Of a stretch of 27,710 nt of DNA, positions 309 to 19,372 are shown piece by piece (within the stretch, counting starts at the first letter, position 1; the number at the start of each line of letters is the position of its first letter). The DNA is from Planctomycetaceae bacterium. GTDB taxonomy: Bacteria; Planctomycetota; Planctomycetia; Pirellulales; Pirellulaceae. The stretch spans positions 1 through 27,710 of the forward strand of contig NYXM01000178.1 in the NCBI GenBank assembly GCA_002685655.1, read 5' to 3'. Both the position numbers and the translations under genes were made by a program. The notes under the pieces are model-generated. The model made no database searches, was not told the DNA's origin, and saw only the letters and a program-made list of their open reading frames with translations.

Positions 309-2633
309 TCATCTCGGCAATTCTACGTATCGCTCTTGCCCCTCAACAACTCGTATCGCTTGGTTAACCGAAAGATCTCGAAGCACTTGAGTCTTCCCGC
401 TGCTCGGCCAGAAGATTTCAAGTGACTCAACTTGCTCGGCATTTCCGAGTCCGATCGATTGTCCGAGTGGATTCGCGCCGAAGCTACCGCCGCTGTTGAC
501 ATGCTTGTAGATCGAACGAAGTGAGTCACCTTGCTTTACTCGCAGTTGGAGTCGTGCCCCCAGGGCAGCTCGGTTTGAATGTCTCCCGACCAGACTGATG
601 ACAATCCAGTTGTTACCGAAACCCGGGTTCTCGAAAAGAGCATCATAGAAGCCATCCCCTGGATAAGCGCCGCCCAGTTGTTCAAAAACGTCTTGGTCAC
701 CGTCATGATCCAGATCGGCAAATGACACACCGTGCCCCTTTTGAACATGCCCGAACCGTCCGGCCATCGTCACATCGGCGAAGCTTTCGCCCTGTTGATT
801 GTGGTACATCACATTTGGCATCAGATTCTGATACTCGGGTTCACCAGTGCCAAGATAGAAATCGAGATACCCGTCATTGTCCAAGTCACCAAAGTTAGAA
901 CCCATCGGCGCCGTTGGGGCAGTCAGCTGGTAACGCTCGCTCACGTGCGTGAAACCACCGCTGCTGTTCCCTTTATACAAGGCCGGCGGCTCTATTTCGT
1001 ATCCGGCATCGTGCGGCAGGACTTCCAGGAAGTGTGCAGCTAGCCACACGATATCATCCGCGTAAGACGATACGTAAAGATCGAGTGCCCCATCGTTGTT
1101 AAAATCCCAGAACCATGCCGGAAAGCTACGTCGCGGTCCAGTCACGCCTAGCTGTTGAGCTACATCCACGAAGGTGCCATCGCCCCTGTTGCGATAGAGG
1201 CGGTTGGATTGGCCGAAGTTTGAGACATAGATGTCCGGCAACCGATCATTGTCATAGTCTCCCCAAACAACTGCCTTCGCGAACCGGTTGTTTAGCACTC
1301 CTGCTTGGTCTGCCACGTCCGTGAAGGTGCCATCCGCATTGTTTCGGTACAGCAATGAGTAGATGGGGACCGAGCGGGTTGTTTCGTTGCCGATATACAG
1401 ATCCAGATCGCCGTCATTGTCGTAGTCAGCCCACGACGCCGTTTGCGTCGGCGCTCGCGATTGGAGGTTTGCGGAAAAAGTGACGTCAGTAAACGTCCCA
1501 TCTCCGTTATTGTGCAATAAAGAGTTAGGATGTCGACCACCACTCTGGAACCACCCCCCGCGCAACACGAAGAGATCAAGAAAACCGTCGTTGTCATAGT
1601 CTGTTTGCACCAAATTCAGGCCACCCAATAAGCCGGTCAGCCCAGCCTGCTTCGTGCTATCGATAAACTCCCCCTGTTCGTTCTCGAAGAAGTGCATCTG
1701 TCCATATGTGTCATAATTCGAGACCACAATATCAAGCTGACAATCGCCGTTGAAGTCATCTACGATTGCACCGCCAGCGAGGCTGAAGGTATCCAGGCCC
1801 TTGCGCTGGGAGATGTTCGTGAAGCTGGGAAATCCGCCCTTCGGTTCGAAGGCTCGCTGAGGAACTCGCCATTCCTTAGGGATTTCGTCGGGATACTGCC
1901 CAAGCGTCATGTGCGCGATGTTGTAAAGCCATAGCGCTCGCAACCAGATTGCTGACTTCTCTGGCGCCTTTCGCAACACGCGCTCGAACCAATGTATTGC
2001 CCCCGTCGATCCGTCCAAATCCACGTGGATGCCGCCGCCGCGGATGGGGACGAGGCAACTATCCAGCGTATTACGATTAACGCAATTCTGAGTTTCGGCG
2101 AGACGCAAGTGCGCGACGCCCAACTTAAAGTCTAGATCGTTCGCCAGTTGCGCCATCCGCTCGTCAGGCGTCTCTTTCAGCGTCTGGTCGACAAGCTGTT
2201 GGCACTGCAATAGTAGCTCAATCGCTTCTCGTTCATTGCCGAGCCGAAGTTCCAGGCCAGCCAATTCGCTTTGCACAGCATACTGTTGCGGCAGCGATTG
2301 CCATTGTTGTGTCTCGGCAAGTTGTCGCCGCAGAGCGAGCGCCTTCGCGTCGCCAAGCCAGTCGATCGTCTCGCCAGTGGAAACGCTGATCTCGCGGAGT
2401 TCTTCCACCATCAGTGCGTGAGCTTGCGCAGGTGACGGCGGTTGCCTCGGTGCGATAATTGGGCGCACGGAGATTGTGGAGGCCGGTGCTGTCTCATTCC
2501 CCTGCCGGTGGCATCCGAGTGCGGAAGCGACAATCAGAAGAACGAATGTTGCCAGCGCCTCCTCAGAGCAGAGACGCGTTGTGACATTCGGTAGTGAGAA
2601 GATCCGGTTGAAGTCGGCAATTAATCGTATCAT
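309..2633 (-). CDS. CRTAC1-family lipoprotein with FG-GAP repeats and ASPIC/UnbV (paralog 1)
   Basis: Predicted exported lipoprotein of about 774 aa. The frame is open to 2843, but I chose the ATG at 2633 because it puts a hydrophobic signal (FVLLIVASALGC) near the N-terminus with a lipid-accepting Cys near residue 41, and gives the same size as its paralog at 4869-7184. No strong ribosome site separates the candidate starts. After the signal comes a helical TPR-like region of about 200 aa containing the paired-cysteine segment NCVNRNTLDSCLVPIRGGG. FG-GAP/VCBS repeats follow, with calcium-loop motifs such as DYDNDGFLDLF, DYDNDGDLDLY and DLDHDGDQDVF. The C-terminal ASPIC/UnbV domain has IGLG and IFWPSSGKTQVL. 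In this family the repeats fold as a calcium-binding propeller; the substrate is unknown. It lies 500 nt downstream of the sco1-like gene on the same strand, probably as a separate transcript. Confidence 0.9.
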   Translation of the reverse strand: MIRLIADFNRIFSLPNVTTRLCSEEALATFVLLIVASALGCHRQGNETAPASTISVRPIIAPRQPPSPAQAHALMVEELREISVSTGETIDWLGDAKALALRRQLAETQQWQSLPQQYAVQSELAGLELRLGNEREAIELLLQCQQLVDQTLKETPDERMAQLANDLDFKLGVAHLRLAETQNCVNRNTLDSCLVPIRGGGIHVDLDGSTGAIHWFERVLRKAPEKSAIWLRALWLYNIAHMTLGQYPDEIPKEWRVPQRAFEPKGGFPSFTNISQRKGLDTFSLAGGAIVDDFNGDCQLDIVVSNYDTYGQMHFFENEQGEFIDSTKQAGLTGLLGGLNLVQTDYDNDGFLDLFVLRGGWFQSGGRHPNSLLHNNGDGTFTDVTFSANLQSRAPTQTASWADYDNDGDLDLYIGNETTRSVPIYSLLYRNNADGTFTDVADQAGVLNNRFAKAVVWGDYDNDRLPDIYVSNFGQSNRLYRNRGDGTFVDVAQQLGVTGPRRSFPAWFWDFNNDGALDLYVSSYADDIVWLAAHFLEVLPHDAGYEIEPPALYKGNSSGGFTHVSERYQLTAPTAPMGSNFGDLDNDGYLDFYLGTGEPEYQNLMPNVMYHNQQGESFADVTMAGRFGHVQKGHGVSFADLDHDGDQDVFEQLGGAYPGDGFYDALFENPGFGNNWIVISLVGRHSNRAALGARLQLRVKQGDSLRSIYKHVNSGGSFGANPLGQSIGLGNAEQVESLEIFWPSSGKTQVLRDLSVNQAIRVVEGQERYVELPR
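700..755. repeat. Copy 1 of a 56-bp near-identical direct repeat inside two CRTAC1 genes
   Basis: Positions 700-755 match 5275-5330 at 55 of 56 bases (the only difference is T723 versus C5298). Both encode the segment around GHVQKGHGVSFADLDHDGDQD in two paralogous genes whose surroundings have clearly diverged, including at synonymous sites. Confidence 0.85.
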
Positions 2634-3132
2634 CGCGCAGCATCTGCCTGGAAGAATGGGGGTGAGCAAGAGCGCCGTCTGGATCATCCGCGTGTAGGTG
2701 TCCGCAACGTGATTCATGTGCAGTACCCGCTTACAAAACCGTCTATACCGCTCCGGTCTCGAAACGTTGTGTGCGTTAGACTGAGGAGCGCCCCACCTAT
2801 GGCATGGCTTACCTCTGCAGTCAGAATACTCGAACGAATACAAGACTACAATCAGGTTTTGACCTCGATCAGGCGGCGGAATCTCAGGCCAGATGGTGTC
2901 GCAAAACGTCGACTTGCGTCGTCACATGGCGGAAGATGTCCATATCAACTGCGGCTGCGCATGGTGGCATGAAGCCGTCTGGTCGAAAGACTCGAACGAC
3001 GCCAAAGTGTTTGACAATGTGGCGATTGCAATGTGCCCGCGCGGATATCACAGCCGGCCACAGCTGCCGCTCAACACAACAAATTGATTCGAGAACCAAT
3101 GCCTTGAAAATGGAGTTTTCGTGCTTTCGCGA
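2634..3132. other. Intergenic region between sco1-like gene and CRTAC1 paralog 1
   Basis: About 500 nt between two same-strand genes. Short frames on both strands show no recognisable family. The part up to 2843 stays in frame with the downstream CRTAC1 protein and could be an N-terminal extension, but its Cys/Arg-rich translation does not look like a signal peptide. I see no clear terminator or RNA gene. Confidence 0.45.
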
Positions 3133-4868: not shown

Positions 4869-7184
4869 TCAAAACTGCAACTCTTTCAACTGCAGTCGTT
4901 CGTATTGACTCCGGCCTTCAATAATTCGAATGATCTGATTGACCGGCACGTCTTCGAACACTTGTGTTTGATCAGTCGTCGGCCAGTAAACCTCGAGCTT
5001 ACGAATGCTGGTGGCTTGTCCTAGCCCAATCGATTGTCGCAGGGGATTACAGCCGAAACTGCCGCCGCTGTTGACGTGTCGATACACGGACCGCTCAACG
5101 CCGTCCTCAATGATCACGGCACGAATTCGAGCACCGATTGCGCTGCGATTTGATTGCTGGCCGACTAATTGCACCGTGATCCAATGATTGTCGAAGCCAG
5201 GATTCTCAAATAAGGTATCTTTAAACTTGTCGCCCAAGAACGCGCCACCCATCTGAATATAGACATCCTGGTCGCCGTCATGATCCAGATCGGCAAACGA
5301 CACACCGTGCCCCTTTTGAACATGCCCGAATCCTCCGGCCGTGGTCACGTTCGCGAATTTTTGCCCTGCCTGATTTAGAAACATCACGTTGGGCCTCAAC
5401 TCATAATAGTAAATGTCTCCGGTGCCGAGATAGAAATCGAGATACCCATCGTTGTTCAAATCGCCGAAGTTCGCTCCCATGGGTAATGCGGGGTAGGTCA
5501 GCTTCTGCTCGCGGCTGACATCCATGAATCCACCTCGTCCGTCGCCGCGATAGAGCGACATCATTTCGACCTCTACCTCCTCTTGCAGTTGTCGAGTCGG
5601 CGTCTTGATGTCCGTCAAGTCGGCTCCGAGCGAGTTGAGTGCTAGGATGCCGACATGCCCGCTGGAGCAGCCCACATACAGATCGAGGGCTCCGTCGTTA
5701 TCGAAGTCCCAGAACCAAGTTGGAAAACTCGCGGTTGGGTTGGTGACGCCCGCTTCCTCGGCTACATCTGTAAACGTTCCATCGCGATTGTTTCTATACA
5801 GACGATTCGCGCCGCCATTGGAAACGAACAGATCTGGAAATCGATCTCCGTCATAATCTCCCCAGGTGGCGCCCATCGCGAAGAGTTCTTCTTGCAGCCC
5901 AGCCGCCGCGGCCACGTCCTCGAACGTCCCGTTGCCACGGTTCCGGAACAACTGAGCCGGAGCGCGACATGTCTCCGTTGTTTCATTGCCGACGTACAAG
6001 TCGAGATCTCCGTCGTTGTCGTAGTCTGCCCAGGCTGCTGTCTTACAGGGATAGTGAACCTTGCCCAATCCGGCATCGAAAGTCACGTCGGCGAACGTTC
6101 CACCGTCGTTGCGCAGGAGAGAATTCGGATGGCGTCCCCACTCTTCTAGCCAAGCCCCTCGCATGATGAAGACATCAACGTCGCCGTCGTTGTCGTAATC
6201 CGCCTGCACCATATTGAGGCCACCATAGAGCCCCAGCAGGCCAGCTTCTTCGGTGCGTTCGGTGAATGCGCCGTCACGATTATTCCGAAACAACTGCGTT
6301 TGCCCGATGCTGTCATGGGTGGACGTCATGATGTCGAGATAGTCGTCGTTGTCAAAATCGTCAACGATTGCTCCGCCGCTCAAGTTGAATGTATCCAAGC
6401 CCAGCTTGGGAGAAATATTCTCGAACCTACGGATGTCAATCTCCGGCTGAAAGAAGCTCGGCGGTATCAAATGTTCTTTGGGGACGTCATGTGGATATCC
6501 GCCGAGTGTCATGTAGGCAATGTTCAGAAGCCAAGTAGCCGGAAGATGAACCTTCACCTGCTCGACTTTCTCGTCGGAAGGCCGATCAAGAACTTCCAGA
6601 AAACACTCAATTGCTGTTCGCGAGCCGATTTGTCGAATGTGAAGTCCAGCCCCCTGAATCGGTACAATGCAGCTCTCGCTGGAGTAGAGTTGAACGCAAT
6701 TCTCAGTCTCACCAAGCCGCATCCAAGCCGTTCCCCGGCTGAAAGTCAGGCGGTTCCAGAATCGATTCCGGACCGTCTCATTCGGGTACGGAAGCTGTGG
6801 AAACAACTCCGATGCCGTGGTGAGATGCTTGATCGCAGCCTCGATGTTGTCGACGTGCAGTTCTTCTTGGCCTAACTCCGAATGCGCCGCGATGCGGTCG
6901 AACACGCTTGCTGAAGGCCCAAGATTGGCAACTCGTTGACGTAACAGCTGGACTTGATGTGTGCCCAAGTACGGATGTTCGTCAGGCGTGCGCTCTGCGA
7001 TATCGCGCAGAATCTCTAGCATCTGTTCGTGACTGGATGGGGATTGAGCGGGAAGTGCGACCACCGATTTGTCCCTTTTAGCACAACCAGCGATCGCAAT
7101 AGAAACCACGAAGCCAACGAAACACAGCACGCCACGGAATTGGTCTGAAGAGAGATTCAGCATTTTGCGCTTCACAAAAGTCAT
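4869..7184 (-). CDS. CRTAC1-family lipoprotein with FG-GAP repeats and ASPIC/UnbV (paralog 2)
   Basis: A 771-aa (or 764-aa if the ATG at 7163 is used) lipoprotein with a canonical signal, VSIAIAGC, giving lipidated Cys34. The architecture follows paralog 1: a helical N-terminal region with paired cysteines (ENCVQLYSSESCIVPIQGAG), then FG-GAP/VCBS repeats from about residue 240 with DYDNDGDVDVF, DYDNDGDLDLY and DLDHDGDQDVY, then ASPIC/UnbV (IGARIRAV, QSIGLGQA, VYWPTTDQTQVF) to the C-terminus. A 56-bp segment is almost identical to paralog 1. It is divergently arranged with the gene at 7318, with 133 nt between starts that probably hold both promoters. I see no convincing Shine-Dalgarno for either start. 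The biochemical role is not known; a calcium-stabilised surface or periplasmic scaffold is a family-level expectation. Confidence 0.92.
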   Translation of the reverse strand: MTFVKRKMLNLSSDQFRGVLCFVGFVVSIAIAGCAKRDKSVVALPAQSPSSHEQMLEILRDIAERTPDEHPYLGTHQVQLLRQRVANLGPSASVFDRIAAHSELGQEELHVDNIEAAIKHLTTASELFPQLPYPNETVRNRFWNRLTFSRGTAWMRLGETENCVQLYSSESCIVPIQGAGLHIRQIGSRTAIECFLEVLDRPSDEKVEQVKVHLPATWLLNIAYMTLGGYPHDVPKEHLIPPSFFQPEIDIRRFENISPKLGLDTFNLSGGAIVDDFDNDDYLDIMTSTHDSIGQTQLFRNNRDGAFTERTEEAGLLGLYGGLNMVQADYDNDGDVDVFIMRGAWLEEWGRHPNSLLRNDGGTFADVTFDAGLGKVHYPCKTAAWADYDNDGDLDLYVGNETTETCRAPAQLFRNRGNGTFEDVAAAAGLQEELFAMGATWGDYDGDRFPDLFVSNGGANRLYRNNRDGTFTDVAEEAGVTNPTASFPTWFWDFDNDGALDLYVGCSSGHVGILALNSLGADLTDIKTPTRQLQEEVEVEMMSLYRGDGRGGFMDVSREQKLTYPALPMGANFGDLNNDGYLDFYLGTGDIYYYELRPNVMFLNQAGQKFANVTTAGGFGHVQKGHGVSFADLDHDGDQDVYIQMGGAFLGDKFKDTLFENPGFDNHWITVQLVGQQSNRSAIGARIRAVIIEDGVERSVYRHVNSGGSFGCNPLRQSIGLGQATSIRKLEVYWPTTDQTQVFEDVPVNQIIRIIEGRSQYERLQLKELQF
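5275..5330. repeat. Copy 2 of the 56-bp near-identical direct repeat
   Basis: Partner of 700-755; 55 of 56 bases match, in the same orientation and reading frame of the paralogous gene. Confidence 0.85.
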
Positions 7185-7317: not shown

Positions 7318-10300
7318 ATGTCGTCAGAAGCATCGGTCAGCGGCGAGGCACCCAGGCGTCGGGCGTATTGGCTGCCTTTGATCGTCCTCGTGGCGGGTTC
7401 GATTGGTGCGGTTGCCTACATGTTCCGAAGGGACAATGAAGATCCTGTCGCCGTACCGCTGACGGATGTCGCGGAAAAGGACGGCTTGGAACCTGAAGCT
7501 GTTTGGGAGACCGAGTTGTTTGCTGACGCCGCGTCCAAGCAACTGAATCTGCTGGCGGAAGCGATAGAGGAACAAGCCGAAATCGACCGCTCGGCTTTGT
7601 CCACAATCGTCGTGCCAACCATTTCATGCGAGCGACTGCGTCCCGAGTCATTACAAGAGGCTTTTGCTGACGAATCGATCACCGTGCTTCGCGGCTTTGA
7701 GAATCAGCCCAATACCAACTCGGCTCGCGGTGTTGAAGTACTCCTTGAATCGCTGAAGGCTCTGAAGAAACCACTGGCCGGTGCGTCTGATATCCACGTA
7801 AAGTTCAAGATTACTGGCGTGGATGTTGGCGAGTCGGCCGTGACGACGAATGTCATCTATCAAGCCAGTGGCCGTTTCGTTCTCCACACGGTTCAGCAAA
7901 CTGGTGTTTGGTTGTGCCAGTGGCAAAGAACGCACATCTCTAAGCCCCCCTTATTGGAACAGATCAGCGTTGACAAGTTCGAAGAGGTTATTGGGCGCGG
8001 AGCGACGGGGGCCCTGTTTGCCGATTGCACTGAAGCCGTCTTTCGGAATGAGCCGACATTTGCCGAACAACTCCTGCCTGGTATCGACTATTGGCGAGGT
8101 AGCATTCAAGCACAATACGGAGTCTATCCGTACGGACACCACGGAATCGCGGTCGGTGATGTGAATCGCGACGGGCTGGACGATGTCTATGTCTGCCAAC
8201 CGGCTGGCTTGCCAAATCGACTTTATTTGCAGAATCTCGACGGCACGGTGACTGACGTAGCTGCTTCCGCCGGCGTTGACTGGCTGGACCGCTGTCGCGG
8301 TGCGCTGCTGATCGATCTCGACAACGATGGAGATCAGGATCTGATCGTGTCACTGAACGAGATGATCATCATCATGGCCAACGATGATGAAGTATTTTCG
8401 GAAAAGACGGTCTTTCGGCCGACTGGCGATCCGGGGTCGTTGGCGGCAGCCGACTACGACCGGGATGGCGACCTCGACGTGTTTGTCGTCAACTACGGTC
8501 AACGATTCTTATCCGATGGCGAAAGCAGCGGTCCGATTCCGTATCACGACGCCAATAACGGTGGACCGAACATGCTACTGAGGAACGACGGGGACTGGAA
8601 CTTCACCGATGTAACTCGGCAATGCGGCCTTGACACGAACAACCGCCGCTGGAGTTTCGCGGCAAGTTGGGAAGATTACGACGCTGACGGTGACACCGAT
8701 CTGTACGTTGCCAACGACTTCGGACGAAATAACCTCTACCGAAATGATGGCGGAACGTTTGTTGATGTGGCTGCCGAGGCCGGGGTTGAAGATATTGCGT
8801 CAGGGATGTCCGCATCCTGGGCCGATTACAACCAGGATGGAAGGATGGACTTGTACGTGGGCAACATGTTCTCATCGGCCGGACTGCGAATCTCTTATCA
8901 GGATCGTTTTCAGTCCCAGGCAGACGGGAGTGTACGAGCTCAATTCCAGCGGCTCGCACGAGGCAATTCGCTGTTCCTCAACGCCGGCGATGGAACATTC
9001 GACGACGCGAGTGTGGAGGCAGGGGTCACCGTCGGCCGCTGGGCCTGGGCATCGAAGTTCGTTGACATCAACAATGACGGACTGGAGGACCTCGTCATCG
9101 CAAACGGATTTGTCACGGGCACAGACACCAAGGACTTGTGAAGTTTCTTTTGGCGGCAGGTCGTGTCGCAATCACCTACGTCAACGACAGATAGCAGAGA
9201 TGCGTACGAAGCTGGCTGGTCGCAGATTCTAGAATTCGTGAATACGGGTGGATCGTGGAGTGGCCATGAGCGAAACAGCTGCTTCCTTAACACCGGTGCC
9301 GCTCAATTCGCGGATGCGTCAGCCGCGGCTGGATTGGACTTTCTCGATGACGGACGTTGTGTGGCTGTAGTGGATTGGGATTTGGACGGAGATCTGGATC
9401 TGTGGCTTTCGGCCCGTACGGGACCGGGTTTGCGATTCGTGCTTAACGACGTTCGTGACACCGATGGCGGCGGAAACCACTTTCTGGCCGTGAAACTGAC
9501 TGGTATGTCCTGCAATAGGGATGCAATTGGTGCCCAAGTCGAGCTGACTGTTGAGGGTACGAAGTTGATCCGGACGCTGCATGCTGGCGACGGCTATCTG
9601 TCCCAGTCCAGTAAATGGGTTCATTTCGGTCTGGGAGACACCGCGTCCATCGAGCAGTTGCGTGTGCGCTGGCCGGGCGGAGACGTTGAGGAGTTTCGCG
9701 GTTTGACAGTAAACACGCGCTTCGAACTCGTTCAAGGCCATGGCCAGGCGGTTGCATGGCAGGCGCCGCAGCGACAGGTCGTGTTGAAGGAATCCCGGAT
9801 CGAAACGCGTCTCGAACCCACGCCAGCTCGTCTCGTGCTGTTCGATCGGATTCCGCTGCCCCACTTGCGGTACACGGACTTCAACGATAACGAGGTCACA
9901 CTTCTGGAAGAAGGAAAGGGCCCGGTACTAGTCAGCCTGTGGGCGACATGGTGCGCACCGTGTTTGGTGGAGCTGCGAGACATCAAGAACGCCGAGCAAC
10001 AATTGCGAAAGAGCAACCTTGAGATTGTCGCCCTGAGCGTAAATGGTCTTGGCCAAGGTGACTCGTCAGATATGCTGCAGGCCAAGCAGTTCATGAGGCA
10101 GCAACAGTTTCCGTTTTCCGCCGGTGCCGCCCATGTCGACTTGCTTGACAAATTCGATGCGTTCCAAGACGTGCTCATCTCATTACGAGCTCAGTCGGGG
10201 CAGCTGCCGTTGAGTTTTCTGATTGATGAGTTTGGACGTTTGGCTGTCATTTATCCTGGTCCCATCAATATCGAGCAGTTGCTGTCGGATGTTAGAATGC

Positions 10301-10968
10301 TGAATTCGACGCCGACCGAAGCCAGCAACGCCGCATTTCCCTTTGCCGGTCGTTGGTTCGCGCGGCCACACGAGACTGGCAGATTGCTGGTCAAGTTTGC
10401 ACGGGAGTTTAAAGAGCGTAAGCACCCAGAAGACGCCCTGCGATTCGCGGGCCTGGCGGCGGACCTGGCCACTCGCGATGGCATTCCGCCGGAACTCACG
10501 TCCGAACTCGCTTCGATGTTCTTCGAAGCCGGGACCGCAAGCCTGCAACAGGATTCCTTCGAAGAAGCACAGCGGCAGTTTCTTGAAGCTGTGCATCTTC
10601 GTCCAAGTTGGGCCGAAGCTCACACAAATCTAGCGAATGCTCACCGTCAATTAGGCGCCAGTAATGAGGCTATAAGGCACTACCAGATCGCGGTGCAGAT
10701 CGATCCTCAGTTATTGCACGCGCACTTCAATTTAGGCGTCATCCGTCTTGAACAGCGGAACAACGCGGCGGCGGTTGCCCATTTCCAGGCGACCGTCGAG
10801 ACGAACCCGGACCTCGCGGACGGTCATCACTATCTGGGCATCGCACTGGCACGACTCGGCCGCACGAGGGAATCTGCTAGTCACTTGGAAACTGCAGTGC
10901 GGCTTGATCCAGCGAATGCCGCTGCACAACGAAACCTCGATTCCGTATTAGCGGGGCAGACTCCATGA
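7318..10968 (+). CDS. Candidate selenoprotein: CRTAC1/ASPIC-UnbV-TlpA-TPR fusion with in-frame TGA at 9139-9141
   Basis: About 1216 aa if the single TGA (residue 608) is read through. I start at the ATG at 7318 (GGAG at 7304-7307) because it leads into RRRAYWLPLIVLVAG, a signal anchor; the upstream frame runs antisense into another gene. Order: signal anchor; a domain of about 220 aa of unknown fold; FG-GAP repeats from about residue 265 (DVNRDGLDDVY, DLDNDGDQDL, DYDADGDTDLY); the TGA; more repeats (DWDLDGDLDLW); ASPIC/UnbV about 721-808 (GAQVELTV, HFGLGD, VRWPGGDVEEF); a TlpA-like thioredoxin domain with WCAPC (Cys879, Cys882); and at least three TPRs from about 1095. The TGA context is TKDL-TGA-SFFWRQVV and the downstream frame is unbroken for 1.8 kb. 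The upstream half alone would lack ASPIC/UnbV and the downstream half would lack any export signal, so one protein is the better reading. Alternatives are a recent nonsense mutation or a base error. The stop overlaps the next ATG (ATGA). Confidence 0.75.
9150..9171 (+). promoter_or_regulatory. Bacterial SECIS-like stem-loop just after the in-frame TGA
   Basis: Pairing T9150-A9171, T9151-A9170, G9152-C9169, a bulged G9153, C9154-G9168, G9155-C9167, G9156-T9166, C9157-G9165 and A9158-T9164 leaves a five-base loop GGTCG (9159-9163). The loop starts 17 nt after the TGA. Bacterial SECIS elements sit immediately 3' of the UGA inside the coding region with a G in the first two loop bases. As I recall the E. 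coli fdhF element, it also carries GCAGGTC at the loop, the string present here at 9156-9162. Energy was not computed. Confidence 0.65.
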
Positions 10969-11936
10969 AACTTTGGTGCTTCCTCATCTGCGCGGGCCTT
11001 GCGGCTGTCGGAAATCGATTGCAGGGGCAGGCCGTTCTTCCGGCGACGAAAGAACACGCTCTTGCGAAGATTCAACAGTGGGGTGGAACATTCTTCGTTG
11101 ATACACGTGTGCAAAACAATCCGGTCCTGCAAGTTTCTTTGGGTGCATCGAGTGTTACCGACGACGACCTGGCTACGCTGGCGGTCTTGCGAGATCTCAA
11201 GATGATCGACCTCAGCTTCACGTCGATTAGTGACGTCAGTCTGCAGCAGCTTCAGCCGCTGCAAGAGCTAATGGCTCTCAACCTTGACTCAACACGAGTC
11301 AGTGGTGCCGGACTGAAACATCTGACGACGCTACCGCACCTGAAAGTTCTTGGCCTGGGAGGATCGCAAACCACGGACAGGACGCTGGTGCATTTAATAG
11401 GATTTGCGCGGCTCAAGCGTTTGGATCTGAGTAGTTCTCGAGTGTCCGACGAAGGACTGAAACATCTCGCCGGCTTGCCCGAATTAGAGCAAATCGACTT
11501 GCTGGGGACGCGAATCACAGATGCCGGTTTGTCGTACCTCAGTCGAGTCCCCAAACTGACGAAGCTCAGTCTCGTTGGCACGCCGTTGACCGACAAGGGT
11601 GTCAAGCACCTTGCTCAGAATCTACGCCTGCAGATGCTGGTGGTCGATAACACGTGGATCACCGATGACGGTCTCGAACATCTGAAAAAATCCACCACGT
11701 TGGAAACGCTCTGCCTCGGCCTCACGCGGATCAGTGATAACGGTCTAAAGAATCTCGCCGGGTTAAATAACCTCCACACGCTGAGTCTCTCAGGAACTCG
11801 TGTCAGCGACGCGGGTCTGAAACAGCTGAAAGGACTGACCAGGCTGAGAAAGCTCGTGCTCAGTTTCAGCCGGGTTAGCGACACAGGTGTCGATAAACTC
11901 CGATCGGTACTGCCTGACTGTGAGATACAGTGGTGA
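10965..11936 (+). CDS. Exported leucine-rich repeat protein
   Basis: A 323-aa protein with an N-terminal signal (MKLWCFLICAGLAAVG) and then about ten leucine-rich repeats with a period near 24 residues, for example LKRLDLSSSRVSDEGLKHL and LHTLSLSGTRVSDAGLKQL. The (T/S)-x-(V/I)-(S/T)-D-x-G-L pattern is the cysteine-free, RNase-inhibitor-like variant common in planctomycetes. There is no catalytic domain and no membrane anchor beyond the signal, so it is probably a periplasmic protein-binding solenoid. Its ATG overlaps the stop of the preceding gene (ATGA), so it is translationally coupled to the candidate selenoprotein and probably serves the same process. It is unrelated by sequence to the FG-GAP proteins. 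Confidence 0.92.
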   Translation: MKLWCFLICAGLAAVGNRLQGQAVLPATKEHALAKIQQWGGTFFVDTRVQNNPVLQVSLGASSVTDDDLATLAVLRDLKMIDLSFTSISDVSLQQLQPLQELMALNLDSTRVSGAGLKHLTTLPHLKVLGLGGSQTTDRTLVHLIGFARLKRLDLSSSRVSDEGLKHLAGLPELEQIDLLGTRITDAGLSYLSRVPKLTKLSLVGTPLTDKGVKHLAQNLRLQMLVVDNTWITDDGLEHLKKSTTLETLCLGLTRISDNGLKNLAGLNNLHTLSLSGTRVSDAGLKQLKGLTRLRKLVLSFSRVSDTGVDKLRSVLPDCEIQW

Positions 11937-12451: not shown

Positions 12452-14209
12452 TCACTCCGGATTTGGCTCATCCAAGACAATCTCCTGATCGACGGCGACC
12501 TCACTTAGATATTGTCTGTGTCCACTGGGCCAAACAACTTCCACCGCACACGGCTCTTTGCGATCGCCAAGACCAAAGATGAGCGCCGGTTGATTGGTTG
12601 ACACGTAGCTCGTTCCACCGCACAGCTCTTGAAGTAACACGGTTCCTTCCGCTCGTACGATGACGCGGCAGCCGATGCCCCGGCGGTTGCTCAGGCGGCC
12701 ATGAAACTGGAATTTCAGCCAGTGACCGTGTTGCGAGTCGTTGCGCAGAATTGCCGTGGGTTGATTCTGATGAACGACTGCCAGATCGGCGTCACCATCC
12801 GCGTCAAAATCACACCACGCCGTGCCTCTCCCGACGTACTTCGTGCTGAAAAAACCTCCAGCCAACGGGCCACAATCCTGCCAAGAACGTCCGTTAAATG
12901 CGAGAAGTTGAGGATGCATTTTGTGACGCAGATTGCCTGGATAGTTCTCGATGTGTCCGTTTGTCACAAAGATATCTTGCAATCCATCCTGATTGAAATC
13001 TGAGATGACGACGCCGAAACCTAAGTAAGGCTTGGTGGGTTCATGCAGTCCAGCAATCCCAGTAATGTCCTGAAACCCGTGTGAGCCGAGATTGTCATAC
13101 AGCGTATTGGACTCATCTTGAAAGTGCGTCGCATAGATATCCAAGAATCCATTGTTGTTCAGGTCACCCACACCAACTCCCATGCTTGCTTGAAACGAGC
13201 CGTTTCGATCCACGGCGCATCCCAGCAGATAAGCGTTCTCCGTGAACCGAGCGGCTCCCTGATTCAGAAAGAGGAAGTTGGCGGTGGTGTCGTTCGCGAC
13301 GTAAATGTCAGGCAATCCGTCATTATTGAAATCTGCGATCGCGACTCCAAGAGCCTTGCCACCGTCGCCGACCAAGCCGCGCTGTCGAGCCTCGCGCGAG
13401 AACGTTCCATCTCCTCGATTCACAAAAAACTCGTCGGGCCAAGGGTCGAGATCCCTTGGGTGGCAGATGCGAAACTCTCCCTCTTTCGTTCGACATTCCA
13501 GGGGATCCTGTGGATCGTAAATCAAGTAATTGCAAACGTAGAGATCAAGGTCTCCATCAAGGTCTAGATCAGCCCACGCAGCCGAAGTGCTCCACCTTTC
13601 ATCGTTAACATCGGCTGACTCGCCGACCTCTTCAAAGGTGCCGTCGCCCTGGTTCTTCCAGAGTGCGTTCCTGCCTACGTTTGTAAGGTACACGTCGTCA
13701 AATCCATCGTTATCGTAGTCGCCAATCGCGACGCCCATCCCATACCCGAACTCCGCTAAGAAGCTGCATTCGGTCGTCTCGATAAAACCCTCGCCACCTT
13801 GATTTTGGAACAGCGCGTCGGTGGGCTGAGAAGAATTGGCGTCTTGTGTCGGGTCGCCGCCCTGGTTCAGGTAAAGATCCCAGTGGCCGTCGCGATCGTA
13901 GTCGAGCCAACCGCAGCCGCCTCCCAAGGTTTCGACCATAATCGATTGACCTTGCTCTCCATTGCGATAGAGGTGGGACAGGCCAATCTGCTGGGCAACC
14001 TCGGAGAAGTCAATCGCGGGGACCCATGCCGTGGAGGAAACTCGCTGCTCAGCGTTCGCCGCTTTCTGACGCGAGAATACGAAAGGGGACGTCTGATCAG
14101 GCGGTGTTTCGTTGGTCTGGCGATCGTGGCAGGCAACGCTTGTCGTCAGCAGAACCAACAGCAGGCCCCACAGCGGCATCGCCGTGCATTTTTGCCAGAG
14201 ATCCGCCAT
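12452..14209 (-). CDS. CRTAC1-family lipoprotein with FG-GAP repeats and ASPIC/UnbV (short form)
   Basis: About 585 aa. The frame opens at 14260, but that ATG lies inside the terminator hairpin of the upstream gene, so I use the ATG at 14209, which begins MADLWQKCTAMPLWGLLLVLL and leads to a lipobox-like TTSVAC. There is no TPR-like region: FG-GAP/VCBS repeats begin soon after the signal (DYDRDGHWDLYLNQGG, DYDNDGFDDVYLTNVG, DLDLDGDLDLYVCNY, DFNNDGLPDIYVAND) and the protein ends with ASPIC/UnbV (GIGCRVIVRAEGTVL, LIFGLGDR, VVWPSGHRQYLSEV). This is the minimal CRTAC1 layout, with several cysteines in the repeat region (ECRTKEGEFRICHP) that could form disulfides or bind metal. It is the last gene of the long minus-strand block, separated from the DUF1559 gene by a strong terminator, so it probably needs its own promoter or readthrough. 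Confidence 0.9.
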   Translation of the reverse strand: MADLWQKCTAMPLWGLLLVLLTTSVACHDRQTNETPPDQTSPFVFSRQKAANAEQRVSSTAWVPAIDFSEVAQQIGLSHLYRNGEQGQSIMVETLGGGCGWLDYDRDGHWDLYLNQGGDPTQDANSSQPTDALFQNQGGEGFIETTECSFLAEFGYGMGVAIGDYDNDGFDDVYLTNVGRNALWKNQGDGTFEEVGESADVNDERWSTSAAWADLDLDGDLDLYVCNYLIYDPQDPLECRTKEGEFRICHPRDLDPWPDEFFVNRGDGTFSREARQRGLVGDGGKALGVAIADFNNDGLPDIYVANDTTANFLFLNQGAARFTENAYLLGCAVDRNGSFQASMGVGVGDLNNNGFLDIYATHFQDESNTLYDNLGSHGFQDITGIAGLHEPTKPYLGFGVVISDFNQDGLQDIFVTNGHIENYPGNLRHKMHPQLLAFNGRSWQDCGPLAGGFFSTKYVGRGTAWCDFDADGDADLAVVHQNQPTAILRNDSQHGHWLKFQFHGRLSNRRGIGCRVIVRAEGTVLLQELCGGTSYVSTNQPALIFGLGDRKEPCAVEVVWPSGHRQYLSEVAVDQEIVLDEPNPE

Positions 14210-14230
14210 GAACCGAGTCTGGGGTGGTTG

Positions 14231-14265
14231 AAAAAAAAGGAGATGGCTGTCAGCAGCCATCTCCC
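14231..14265 (-). terminator. Rho-independent terminator of the DUF1559 gene
   Basis: Read on the minus strand: GGAGATGGCTG, loop CTGA, CAGCCATCTCC, then eight T. The arms 14239-14249 and 14254-14264 are a perfect 11-bp stem and the T-run is 14231-14238. It lies 31 nt after the stop of the DUF1559 gene. Confidence 0.95.
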
Positions 14266-16753: not shown

Positions 16754-19372
16754 TCATTCCTCGACTATTTCCACGAGTTGATTTGCGGCGATCGGGCCTT
16801 CCACGGTCTGCTCGTGTCCCGAGGGCCAGATAATCTCGATCCGATCAACGGTCTCCGATTCAGCCAGACCGAAGTATAGCGGCGTGCGGCTTTGGGAAAG
16901 ATAGCCCGATTGTCCATCATACACTTTCTTAACAGTCTTCTGTCCCATCACTAACGTCGCGACCGCACCCAATCCGTCTCGGTTCGATTTGGTGCCTCGG
17001 AGCCTGATCTTGAGATAATTCAGTGGGATCAGTTTGTCGGCAAGATCACTGATCATCACGAGTGGCTCTGAACTAAAGTCGTTTGTCACAATGTCGAGAT
17101 CACCGTCATCGTCCAGGTCGAAGATGACGGATGATCGCGACCCCAGCGCTGACCAAACCGTGATTCGTCCGGTGCGCCCTTTGCAAATGGGGTTATCACT
17201 GTCCAGCCCATCACAATCAAGTTCGAACCAAGCTTTGATCCGTTTATTAGCTGGACGCGGTTCCACGCCCAGCACAAACTCGCTGTCTACGAACCGCTTG
17301 CCGCGGTCGTTTAGCAGTACCGAATTGACACCGTAACGATAAGGAAAACACATGCTGGCTGTGACGAACACGTCATCGAAGCCATCCGCGTTGAGATCAT
17401 CCACGCTGATCCCCCACGGCCAGTAGTTTTCGGCGCCGATCTGGTCAGAGGTCTCCGCGAAGGCACCATTGCCTTGGTTGTGATAGAAGGCGTTTCCAAA
17501 AATACTCTTTTCGCCAGTGCTCCGCAGGAACACTTCCGGCCACTGCATGTCTGATTTTTGCTTTTCTTGCTTCGGACCGACGTCCTCGCTCATGTCAGAA
17601 TGCATGTCGGTAATGTACACATCGAATCGGCCGTCGTTGTCAAAATCGAAGGATTTGATTCCCATCGATCCCCAAGGAGTGCGCGGGAACACTTCGCGGC
17701 TCTTCCGCTCAAAACGCTCGCCACCGATGTTCACGTAGTATTCGTCGTCGCCTTGCATGTTCAGTACGTACAAATCGAGCCACCCGTCTTGATTCACGTC
17801 CAAAGGGCTTGCCGCCCCGGACCAACTAGTATCGACCAACTCGACTTCTTCCGAGACGTCGGTGAATTGTCGTCCATTGATGTTTTTGTAGAGGATACTG
17901 CGTTCGGAATGGTCTGCTTTGAGGTGTCCGGCGAAGGCATCCGCGGTGCCTACGTAATACTTGTATTCACCTTCCGGCAGGGAACTTGTGCCATCGATGC
18001 GGAGGCTAGCGTGTTCGTCGGTTGTGTACTTGCCAACATTCGTCAGGAACAGATCCAGCAGGCCATCGCGGTTGTAGTCAAAGAACACGGCAGCGGAAGA
18101 ATGTCCTACGTAGGCCAACCCTGCATCGTTCGTAATGTCGCGGAAGACTCCCTGACCGGTGTTCTCGAACAGGATGTTGCCACCGCGGACGGTTGTCACA
18201 AAAAGGTCGGCGTCGCCATCGTTATCAATATCCGCGAACGACGCCGTCACGCCGATGCGGTCGTGGACTGCGACACCTGCTTTGTCGGTAATGTTCTCGA
18301 ACTTCCCACCGCTAAGATTACGATAAAGTCCATTTGCCCCTGCTTGCGCGACAAAGTAGATGTCTAGCTGTCCGTCGCCATCCACGTCTGCCACAGCCAC
18401 ACCGTTGCCGTGATCATAGTGGTTGACCTGGAGCCGCCAGCGTTGCTCGTCGACGATTTGTGGCTGGAAATCGATGCCACTGTCGGCAGCCATGTTGCGA
18501 AACTGAAACGAGTGGAAGACGTCCAACGCCTTCATCGCTTCGATTTGCGAGTTCTTACGGTCTTCCAGCCATGCCGTGCTGATGATCTCGGGCGGCTGTC
18601 CGAGGTGGGTCATCCGGGAGCGGCCTTCTTCGGCGTCGGAACCGCCGTCCAGCACGGCCATTTCCGGCACCACGAAATCCAAAGCACGCCGCAAGTCGGC
18701 CAATCCATCCTGCTTCAGTACGTCGAAATAGCCGCGGATTCGGTTTTGCCGGTCAACCAACACGAACTTCGAATCGTGCATGATCGGCATCGCCGAATTT
18801 CGAGCGTCCTCGGCGACTGCCAATCGAAAGCCGGCCTTGCTCAATTGCCAGATCTTCTCACGCTCGCCCGTCAAGAACTTCCAGTGTTTCTCGTCCGCGC
18901 CGGCCGACGTTGCATACTCTTGGAGGATCTTCGGCTGGTCGTACTCCGGGTCGACCGAGATGCTAAGCAGCCGAATGTCTGGCCAAACCGGATCCTTCTT
19001 GAGCTGATCCTGCAGGTCCGCCATCCGCCGCGTCTGCATCGGGCAGGTTACTTGACAACGCGTAAAGATGAAGTTGGCGATCCACACTTTTCCCTGCAGA
19101 TCGGGAGTGCCAAACGATCGGCCAGCCTGGTCTGTTAGCACAAACTCTGGAACGTCTCCGAGGAATGCCGCGAGTTGCCTCTCCTGAGGTTGTTCAGGAG
19201 ACAGCGCCTGGCTCCCGCTGGCGCCGGCATTCGTTTCATTGTCCTCGCCCTGTTCAACCAGTGTTGGCGCCGGCACCGGAGGGCCATTGAGGGACCTGAT
19301 GGCATACACGCCACCGCTTACGAGGGCCACGACGCCAATCACTGACAGCCAGATATAGGTTTCACGGTTCAC
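16754..19372 (-). CDS. Sco1-CRTAC1 fusion protein
   Basis: An 872-aa membrane-anchored exported protein. Signal anchor at residues 5-25 (YIWLSVIGVVALVSGGVYAI). A complete Sco1/SenC domain spans about 65-235: CQVTC (Cys106, Cys110) after FIFTR, and His199 in MPIMHDSKFVLVD, so all three copper ligands are kept. FG-GAP/VCBS repeats run from about 300 (DVDGDGQLDIYF, DIDNDGDADLFV, DLNADGFDDVFV, DLDDDGDLDIV) and ASPIC/UnbV closes the protein (GLGAVATLVMGQKTV, LYFGLAES, IIWPSGHEQTVEGP). The fusion physically ties copper delivery or thiol chemistry to the CRTAC1 module. It is 13 nt downstream of the beta-helix gene, which is itself coupled to the COX2-like gene, so a copper-related complex is a reasonable inference. 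A frame of 269 aa on the opposite strand is a shadow. Confidence 0.94.
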   Translation of the reverse strand: MNRETYIWLSVIGVVALVSGGVYAIRSLNGPPVPAPTLVEQGEDNETNAGASGSQALSPEQPQERQLAAFLGDVPEFVLTDQAGRSFGTPDLQGKVWIANFIFTRCQVTCPMQTRRMADLQDQLKKDPVWPDIRLLSISVDPEYDQPKILQEYATSAGADEKHWKFLTGEREKIWQLSKAGFRLAVAEDARNSAMPIMHDSKFVLVDRQNRIRGYFDVLKQDGLADLRRALDFVVPEMAVLDGGSDAEEGRSRMTHLGQPPEIISTAWLEDRKNSQIEAMKALDVFHSFQFRNMAADSGIDFQPQIVDEQRWRLQVNHYDHGNGVAVADVDGDGQLDIYFVAQAGANGLYRNLSGGKFENITDKAGVAVHDRIGVTASFADIDNDGDADLFVTTVRGGNILFENTGQGVFRDITNDAGLAYVGHSSAAVFFDYNRDGLLDLFLTNVGKYTTDEHASLRIDGTSSLPEGEYKYYVGTADAFAGHLKADHSERSILYKNINGRQFTDVSEEVELVDTSWSGAASPLDVNQDGWLDLYVLNMQGDDEYYVNIGGERFERKSREVFPRTPWGSMGIKSFDFDNDGRFDVYITDMHSDMSEDVGPKQEKQKSDMQWPEVFLRSTGEKSIFGNAFYHNQGNGAFAETSDQIGAENYWPWGISVDDLNADGFDDVFVTASMCFPYRYGVNSVLLNDRGKRFVDSEFVLGVEPRPANKRIKAWFELDCDGLDSDNPICKGRTGRITVWSALGSRSSVIFDLDDDGDLDIVTNDFSSEPLVMISDLADKLIPLNYLKIRLRGTKSNRDGLGAVATLVMGQKTVKKVYDGQSGYLSQSRTPLYFGLAESETVDRIEIIWPSGHEQTVEGPIAANQLVEIVEE

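Follow-up and report, generated by a model that had tools for sequence, protein, structure and literature searches.

Organisation of the locus

The window, the whole 27,710-nucleotide stretch of DNA that was analysed, carries on its forward strand a candidate selenoprotein gene that reads from an ATG to a final TGA as 1216 residues plus the stop. The initial annotation had described one TGA splitting a 1216-codon frame, and indeed the TGA at codon 608 was the only internal stop within positions 7318–10968. The features of the gene and its surroundings are listed below.

7318..10968, forward strand: candidate selenoprotein gene (1216 residues), running from its ATG through the TGA at 9139 to the final TGA
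7318..9138, forward strand: first half (607 aa); databases contain the window protein and its relatives in this form
8011..9450, forward strand: FG-GAP beta-propeller, residues about 232–711 (the range aligned to solved propellers)
9139..9141, forward strand: in-frame TGA, predicted Sec codon 608, at a helix start in the structural model
9153..9169, forward strand: predicted SECIS hairpin, arms 9153–9158 and 9164–9169, loop 9159–9163
9523..9720, forward strand: UnbV_ASPIC domain (PF07593), residues 736–801
9859..10245, forward strand: AhpC-TSA/TlpA-ResA-like redoxin domain, residues 848–976
9952..9963, forward strand: CAPC motif, C879 and C882
10525..10938, forward strand: TPR repeats, residues about 1070–1207
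10965..11936, forward strand: leucine-rich-repeat (LRR) gene, overlapping the selenoprotein stop by 4 nt
309..2843, 4869..7184, 12452..14260 and 16754..19372, all reverse strand: further CRTAC1/ASPIC proteins, without the Sec hairpin

The half of the protein encoded before the TGA contains FG-GAP repeats only, and the other half combines the ASPIC/UnbV, redoxin and TPR domains with an FG-GAP remnant scoring below the cut-off; the open reading frame listed for this second half starts at a GTG (9163) lying within the hairpin. The FG-GAP and UnbV_ASPIC matches exceeded the gathering scores and a CRTAC1 fold was found for the window protein, bearing out the proposed membership of the CRTAC1/ASPIC-UnbV family on both sides of the TGA. 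No NCBIfam match fell within the first half (25 of the 31 weak matches for the whole protein were listed). The predicted structure (pLDDT 91.3, pTM 0.93) places residue 608 as the first residue of a helix (394–404 in model numbering). With respect to CRTAC1/ASPIC-UnbV FG-GAP proteins such as murine CRTAC1 (PDB 9etn), the window protein has, in addition, the UGA/Sec position at the start of this inserted helix and the C-terminal redoxin domain and TPRs. A TlpA-like domain with a CAPC motif, also part of the initial annotation, is present: the AhpC-TSA match scored 37.7 bits (cut-off 26), the domain has a redoxin fold with the CAPC, and its Foldseek matches include ResA, TlpA and DsbF. The NCBIfam TlpA and ResA models scored below their own cut-offs on the window protein, so the domain is considered to resemble TlpA/ResA rather than to be equivalent to them. 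A hydrophobic stretch at the N-terminus (residues ~18–36) looks, by eye, like a membrane anchor.

Including the selenoprotein gene, the window encodes five CRTAC1/ASPIC proteins, one of which is fused to SCO1/SenC, together with a free SCO1/SenC, a cytochrome c, a COX2-like cupredoxin and two multihaem cytochromes, surroundings that fit an extracytoplasmic respiratory or copper setting. Among 80 related loci containing the end of the gene, 31 had a downstream same-strand ORF, and no shared gene partner emerged from the grouping of these 31 ORFs by BLAST. The largest group of similar neighbours contained three loci (L056, L072 and L104), followed by the LRR gene of L025 and L088. In these last two loci, a gene similar to the LRR gene of the window overlaps the 3' end by the same 4 nt, suggesting that translation of the second half proceeds as far as its conserved end.

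The hairpin downstream from the TGA

The predicted hairpin consists of the arms GCGGCA (9153–9158) and TGTCGC (9164–9169) enclosing the loop GGTCG (9159–9163). The loop begins 17 nt past the TGA, as initially annotated, and RNA folding gave an energy of -8.7 kcal/mol (9147–9172). The stem had been described as having eight pairs: the inner six are kept in relatives, and the two outer U-A pairs vary (columns 12, 32 and 33 of the relatives' alignment). The hairpin, which we take to resemble the SECIS of E. coli fdhF, shares with that element and with bacterial SECIS (bSECIS) elements a location just 3' of the UGA, a spacing of 17 nt, a stem of six pairs and a G-GU-C loop with pairable bases 1 and 4. 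It differs from them in its distinct, family-specific sequence: no SECIS family was found in the window with Rfam at the gathering score, and loose E-values yielded, near the site, only four weak matches, far below the cut-offs and none of them to a SECIS family. The loop of 5 nt starting with GG, the 6-bp stem, the 17-nt spacing and the folding energy all lie within the bSECIS constraints given in the part of PMC13188914 covered here (loop of 3–9 nt, stem of 4–16 bp, G in the first two loop positions, spacing of 16–37 nt, minimum free energy of at most -7.5).

Folding of the single sequence gave z = -0.65 (45 nt) and z = -2.48 (26 nt). Of 100,000 synonymous recodings that left the peptide unchanged, 4.4% formed the six pairs, and 9.6% of 20,000 such recodings folded at least as well as the native sequence. 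Taken singly, the window hairpin is thereby weakly distinguished, being mildly unusual and compatible with a chance origin. The window alone is insufficient here; chance is ruled out because relatives share the hairpin.

These relatives were identified with the pattern D/E-L/F-TGA-x-F/Y-F-W-R over genome contigs, which gave at least 116 loci (117 matches). BLAST supported 108 of the 117 listed matches (107 loci) as homologues of the window protein with a TGA, and the other nine look like chance matches. Titles were available for 80 of the 116 listed loci and named Planctomycetota, Verrucomicrobiota, Acidobacteriota or unnamed bacteria. In the 106 distinct 48-nt segments obtained, all six pairs were formed in 95 and each single pair in 101–106, and the GU of the loop was invariant (106/106). 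Loop positions 1 and 4 could pair in 98 segments (G-C 77, C-G 14, A-T 4, G-T 3) and could not in the remaining eight, in agreement with the loop pattern N1-G[G/U]-N-N2 published in PMC13188914 (part covered). In a set of 39 diverse rows thinned from the relatives, the covariation score was 0.336, versus 0.164 for shuffled alignments (0 of 500 shuffles as high), and two-sided pair changes were observed in 16 cells (0 of 500 shuffles as high) distributed over four of the six pairs (2 of 500).

A covariance model built from the same 39 relatives, with the window left out (hereafter referred to as R1), recovered positions 9139–9172 of the window with 55.4 bits (E = 5.8e-15; next best hit, E = 0.25). 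When applied to 199 Planctomycetota genomes at E <= 1e-5, R1 identified 41 places in 29 genomes, 23 of them already known. All 18 additional sites belonged to the family, as judged by the flanking peptide, and had the TGA and the six pairs, with drifted peptides including SFLWRQ, SFYWRQ, SSFWRH, SHFWRQ and TFYWRE. The homologue set is therefore not a mere product of the peptide pattern, and the RNA and protein evidence are mutually supportive. Seven distant loci (L259, L262, L263, L264, L266, L269 and L270) carried KDT, EDT or KDC before the TGA and SHFWRQ, SVFWRH, SVYWRQ or TFYWRE after it; these flanking sequences suggest subfamilies that the peptide pattern may have missed. The L264 copy looks broken, as it contains two further stops within 30 codons.

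Position 608 and the decoding of the TGA

We investigated the codon at this position with an any-codon pattern in 686 genomes drawn from larger groups (199 Planctomycetota, 288 Verrucomicrobiota and 199 Acidobacteriota); the residues on either side of the codon are prescribed by the pattern, and family status was assigned by eye from the flanking peptide. Family members had TGA at 38 places, some identical in sequence (23 in Planctomycetota, 10 in Acidobacteriota and five in Verrucomicrobiota, the last all in one genome, G007), and sense codons at 13 places (11 distinct), namely CAG, GCG, AGC, GGC, GCC, TCC, AAT, AAC and GAC. Neither TAA nor TAG was found at the site among the family members matching the pattern in these genomes, and all other matches were unrelated frames. 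All six pairs of the hairpin were present at 35 of the 38 TGA places, versus one of the 11 distinct sense-codon sequences. This exception (L200, G648:C1:1686477-1686505) has GAC at the site, a perfect SECIS-like hairpin and no CxxC, and may represent a recent loss of Sec.

A protein search with the read-through sequence yielded 7,641 hits, the best 120 of which were aligned at residue 608. The residues observed were S (21), D (19), E (15), A (13), N (10), C (9), G (5), H (5), I (5), L (4), Y (2), Q (2), P (2), R (1) and F (1), with a gap in six hits and Trp in none. Full-length hits included P0009 and P0011 (61% and 60% identity across the region searched), both with Cys, P0017 (60%) with Asp and P0056 (60%) with His. 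Homologues had been expected to show Cys or another in-frame TGA at this position: Cys was found in nine of the 120, and TGA in the DNA relatives, but most aligned hits had other residues. Given this variation across the wider family, no residue at the site is universally catalytic. When the 607-aa half was used as the query, 119 relatives remained among the best 120 of 7,998 hits once the query had been excluded, including P0124–P0126 at 90–92% identity, and 118 of them ended in ...NGx...DL at the TGA position (P0200 ends elsewhere); such protein records do not show the kind of stop codon. The database relatives are pieces of ~600 residues, unnamed or recorded as "hypothetical" or "VCBS repeat-containing".

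A nonsense mutation, a decayed gene or a sequencing error in one genome has next to no probability. Position 608 does tolerate many residues, a single base change turns a Cys codon into TGA and the window hairpin is weak evidence by itself. This explanation is nevertheless refuted by the recurrence of the TGA with a covarying hairpin: TGA was read at 108 sites (107 loci), where the two halves are preserved in one frame, and in all 18 cases of each of two further sets. In addition, the ends of 118 of the 119 listed relatives coincide, and neither of the other two stop codons was found at the site among the members matching the any-codon pattern.

It is also very improbable that the TGA is a true stop separating two adjacent genes, the second restarting at GTG 9163. 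The presence of that GTG inside the hairpin and the separate database entry of the first half are in keeping with two genes. Nevertheless, TGA was the sole stop found at the site, members with a sense codon form one continuous chain, 10 of their 11 distinct sequences lack the full hairpin, the 3' junction is kept in L025 and L088, and the break would coincide, in the structural model, with the first residue of a helix within the propeller.

A slightly larger, although still very low, probability is assigned to readthrough of the UGA without selenium, in which, for example, a near-cognate tRNA (for Trp or another residue) would decode it and the hairpin would serve as a stimulator; sequence analysis does not identify the amino acid incorporated. 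Against this, the hairpin agrees with the bSECIS model, including the loop pair, the aligned hits have Cys and no Trp at the site, and the final stop of the window gene is itself a TGA, so UGA is not generally a sense codon here. The distribution of the selenium machinery also bears on this point. In the Planctomycetota set, selB exceeded the cut-off in 134 of the 199 genomes: in 29 of the 29 with the element, versus 105 of the 170 without it (P = 5.7e-6). As the genomes with selB over the cut-off far outnumber those with the element, other selenoproteins are probably common in Planctomycetota.

The machinery was also sought in 40 genomes with TGA homologues (40 loci between L001 and L048) and in 14 control genomes. 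Hits over the cut-off were obtained in 31 of the 40 genomes for selA, 34 for selB, 32 for tRNA-Sec and 37 for selD, and in one, two, five and two of the 14 controls, respectively; the five control hits make the tRNA-Sec search the least specific of the four. Scores above 53 bits were obtained for 31 of the 32 tRNA-Sec hits, the other (G019, 47.8 bits) being doubtful. Each of the 40 genomes had at least one of the four genes. Both selA and selB were missing from G011 and G019, and other genomes lacked one or more of the four, which may reflect incomplete MAGs. All four were present in the genomes harbouring the near relatives L009 (G008) and L025 (G022), which are ~47% identical to the window gene; another near relative, L107, has 53% identity. 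An in-frame TGA was observed in selD in 26 of the 37 genomes (one also with a TAG), and SelD is thus itself likely to be a selenoprotein in those genomes.

The recurrent TGA, the covarying hairpin and the co-occurrence with selB support the earlier proposal that residue 608 is Sec, and Sec insertion is predicted from the presence of the hairpin after the UGA in more than 100 relatives. None of the four findings that the initial annotation had named as contradicting the proposal was obtained, the sel genes being assessed in genomes of relatives. On these grounds, the window gene very probably encodes a selenoprotein of 1216 residues, with UGA608 read as Sec through the ordinary SelB/tRNA-Sec route; the decoding is of the standard bacterial kind. 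A new selenoprotein family is predicted with high confidence, and its members are likely to be recorded in databases as truncated proteins. As the database pieces end at the Sec site, the family, whose members occur in Planctomycetota, Verrucomicrobiota and Acidobacteriota MAGs, is missing from the PMC13188914 catalogue as covered here: among its 119 families, none is named CRTAC1, FG-GAP or UnbV, a few rows giving only "hypothetical protein" and an NCBIfam number. Term look-ups in PMC13188914, PMC12013277 and PMC9312934 revealed no occurrence of a propeller selenoprotein family, and no paper on one was found among the titles and starts of abstracts covered. An earlier mention of the family is possible, because the selenoprotein candidates of two planctomycetes are given in a supplementary table of PMC4807772.

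Association of Sec with the redoxin CxxC

Both Cys residues of the redoxin CxxC were kept in 61 of 63 Sec members (absent from two), versus 17 of 47 members with a non-Cys residue at the site, so the CAPC domain is statistically tied to Sec in the relatives. A test of dependent versus independent evolution of Sec and CxxC along the tree gave a likelihood ratio of 53.2 (p about 8e-11), a p-value that is only a guide because some rates were at their bounds, the rows were not random and the divergent row L076 was left out. A Cys at 654/655 was present in 41 of 62 Sec members versus 26 of 103 others; as this Cys is split over two columns and is not universal, it is not preferred as the Sec partner, and the CxxC is.

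The association with an intact CxxC suggests a possible relay between Sec and CxxC. The protein would be an extracytoplasmic, membrane-anchored oxidoreductase in which Sec608, at the start of the propeller-inserted helix, would provide a reactive selenol at the substrate site. On the basis of the evolutionary pattern, we lean slightly towards its being recycled within one chain by the C-terminal TlpA/ResA-like domain with the CAPC motif. The substrate might be an oxidised thiol, a peroxide or a metal-thiol site of the respiratory or copper proteins encoded nearby.

It is possible, if somewhat unlikely, that Sec608 exchanges no electrons with the CxxC and acts, for example, as a soft-metal ligand, the CxxC keeping other partners reduced. 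The five CRTAC1 proteins, SCO1/SenC, COX2-like cupredoxin and multihaem cytochromes of the window would suit such a role, the site has no U-x-x-C motif, and the CxxC is kept in just three of the nine Cys-608 homologues; against it, a shared redox cycle is the simplest explanation for the dependence of Sec on CxxC along the tree. The chances appear even for the broader proposal that relay and propeller together define a large, unlisted class of extracytoplasmic selenoenzymes, old in several bacterial phyla, with many losses that also removed the CxxC and with expansion to ~20 paralogues in single genomes.

No enzymatic role of CRTAC1-type proteins is known to us, and the conserved Sec offers a direct handle for testing one. 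The window protein shares with TlpA/ResA oxidoreductases a redoxin domain with CAPC, but in the window protein this domain is fused to a propeller and would serve a Sec ~270 residues away in another domain. According to the part of PMC13188914 covered, most characterised selenoproteins have a thioredoxin-like fold; the known redoxin and TlpA selenoproteins described there (UGC TlpA, Redoxin UxxC) likewise contain a thioredoxin-fold domain, but their Sec lies within its motif, whereas the window protein has no Sec in that motif, which reads CAPC, and carries Sec608 on the propeller. An FG-GAP propeller bearing a Sec whose evolution is tied to a CxxC in another part of the protein departs from this arrangement.

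The number of R1 hits per genome in the 40 genomes ranged from one to 22, with 22 in G011, 12 in G024 and nine each in G003 and G039. In G011, the Planctomycetales MAG bin containing L012 (9.2 Mb), 18 of the 22 hits were examined and all 18 were different CRTAC1 paralogues with a TGA, according to the flanking peptide; this copy number may be inflated, as contamination of the bin is possible. Nevertheless, 22 hits in one bin suggest heavy selenium use in some environmental bacteria. All six pairs were present in 16 of the 18 paralogues, and two of the 18 start at a contig edge. The contigs of these two loci, L240 (G011:C970) and L248 (G011:C746), start exactly at the TGA/SECIS, probably reflecting assembly breaks at the repeated element.
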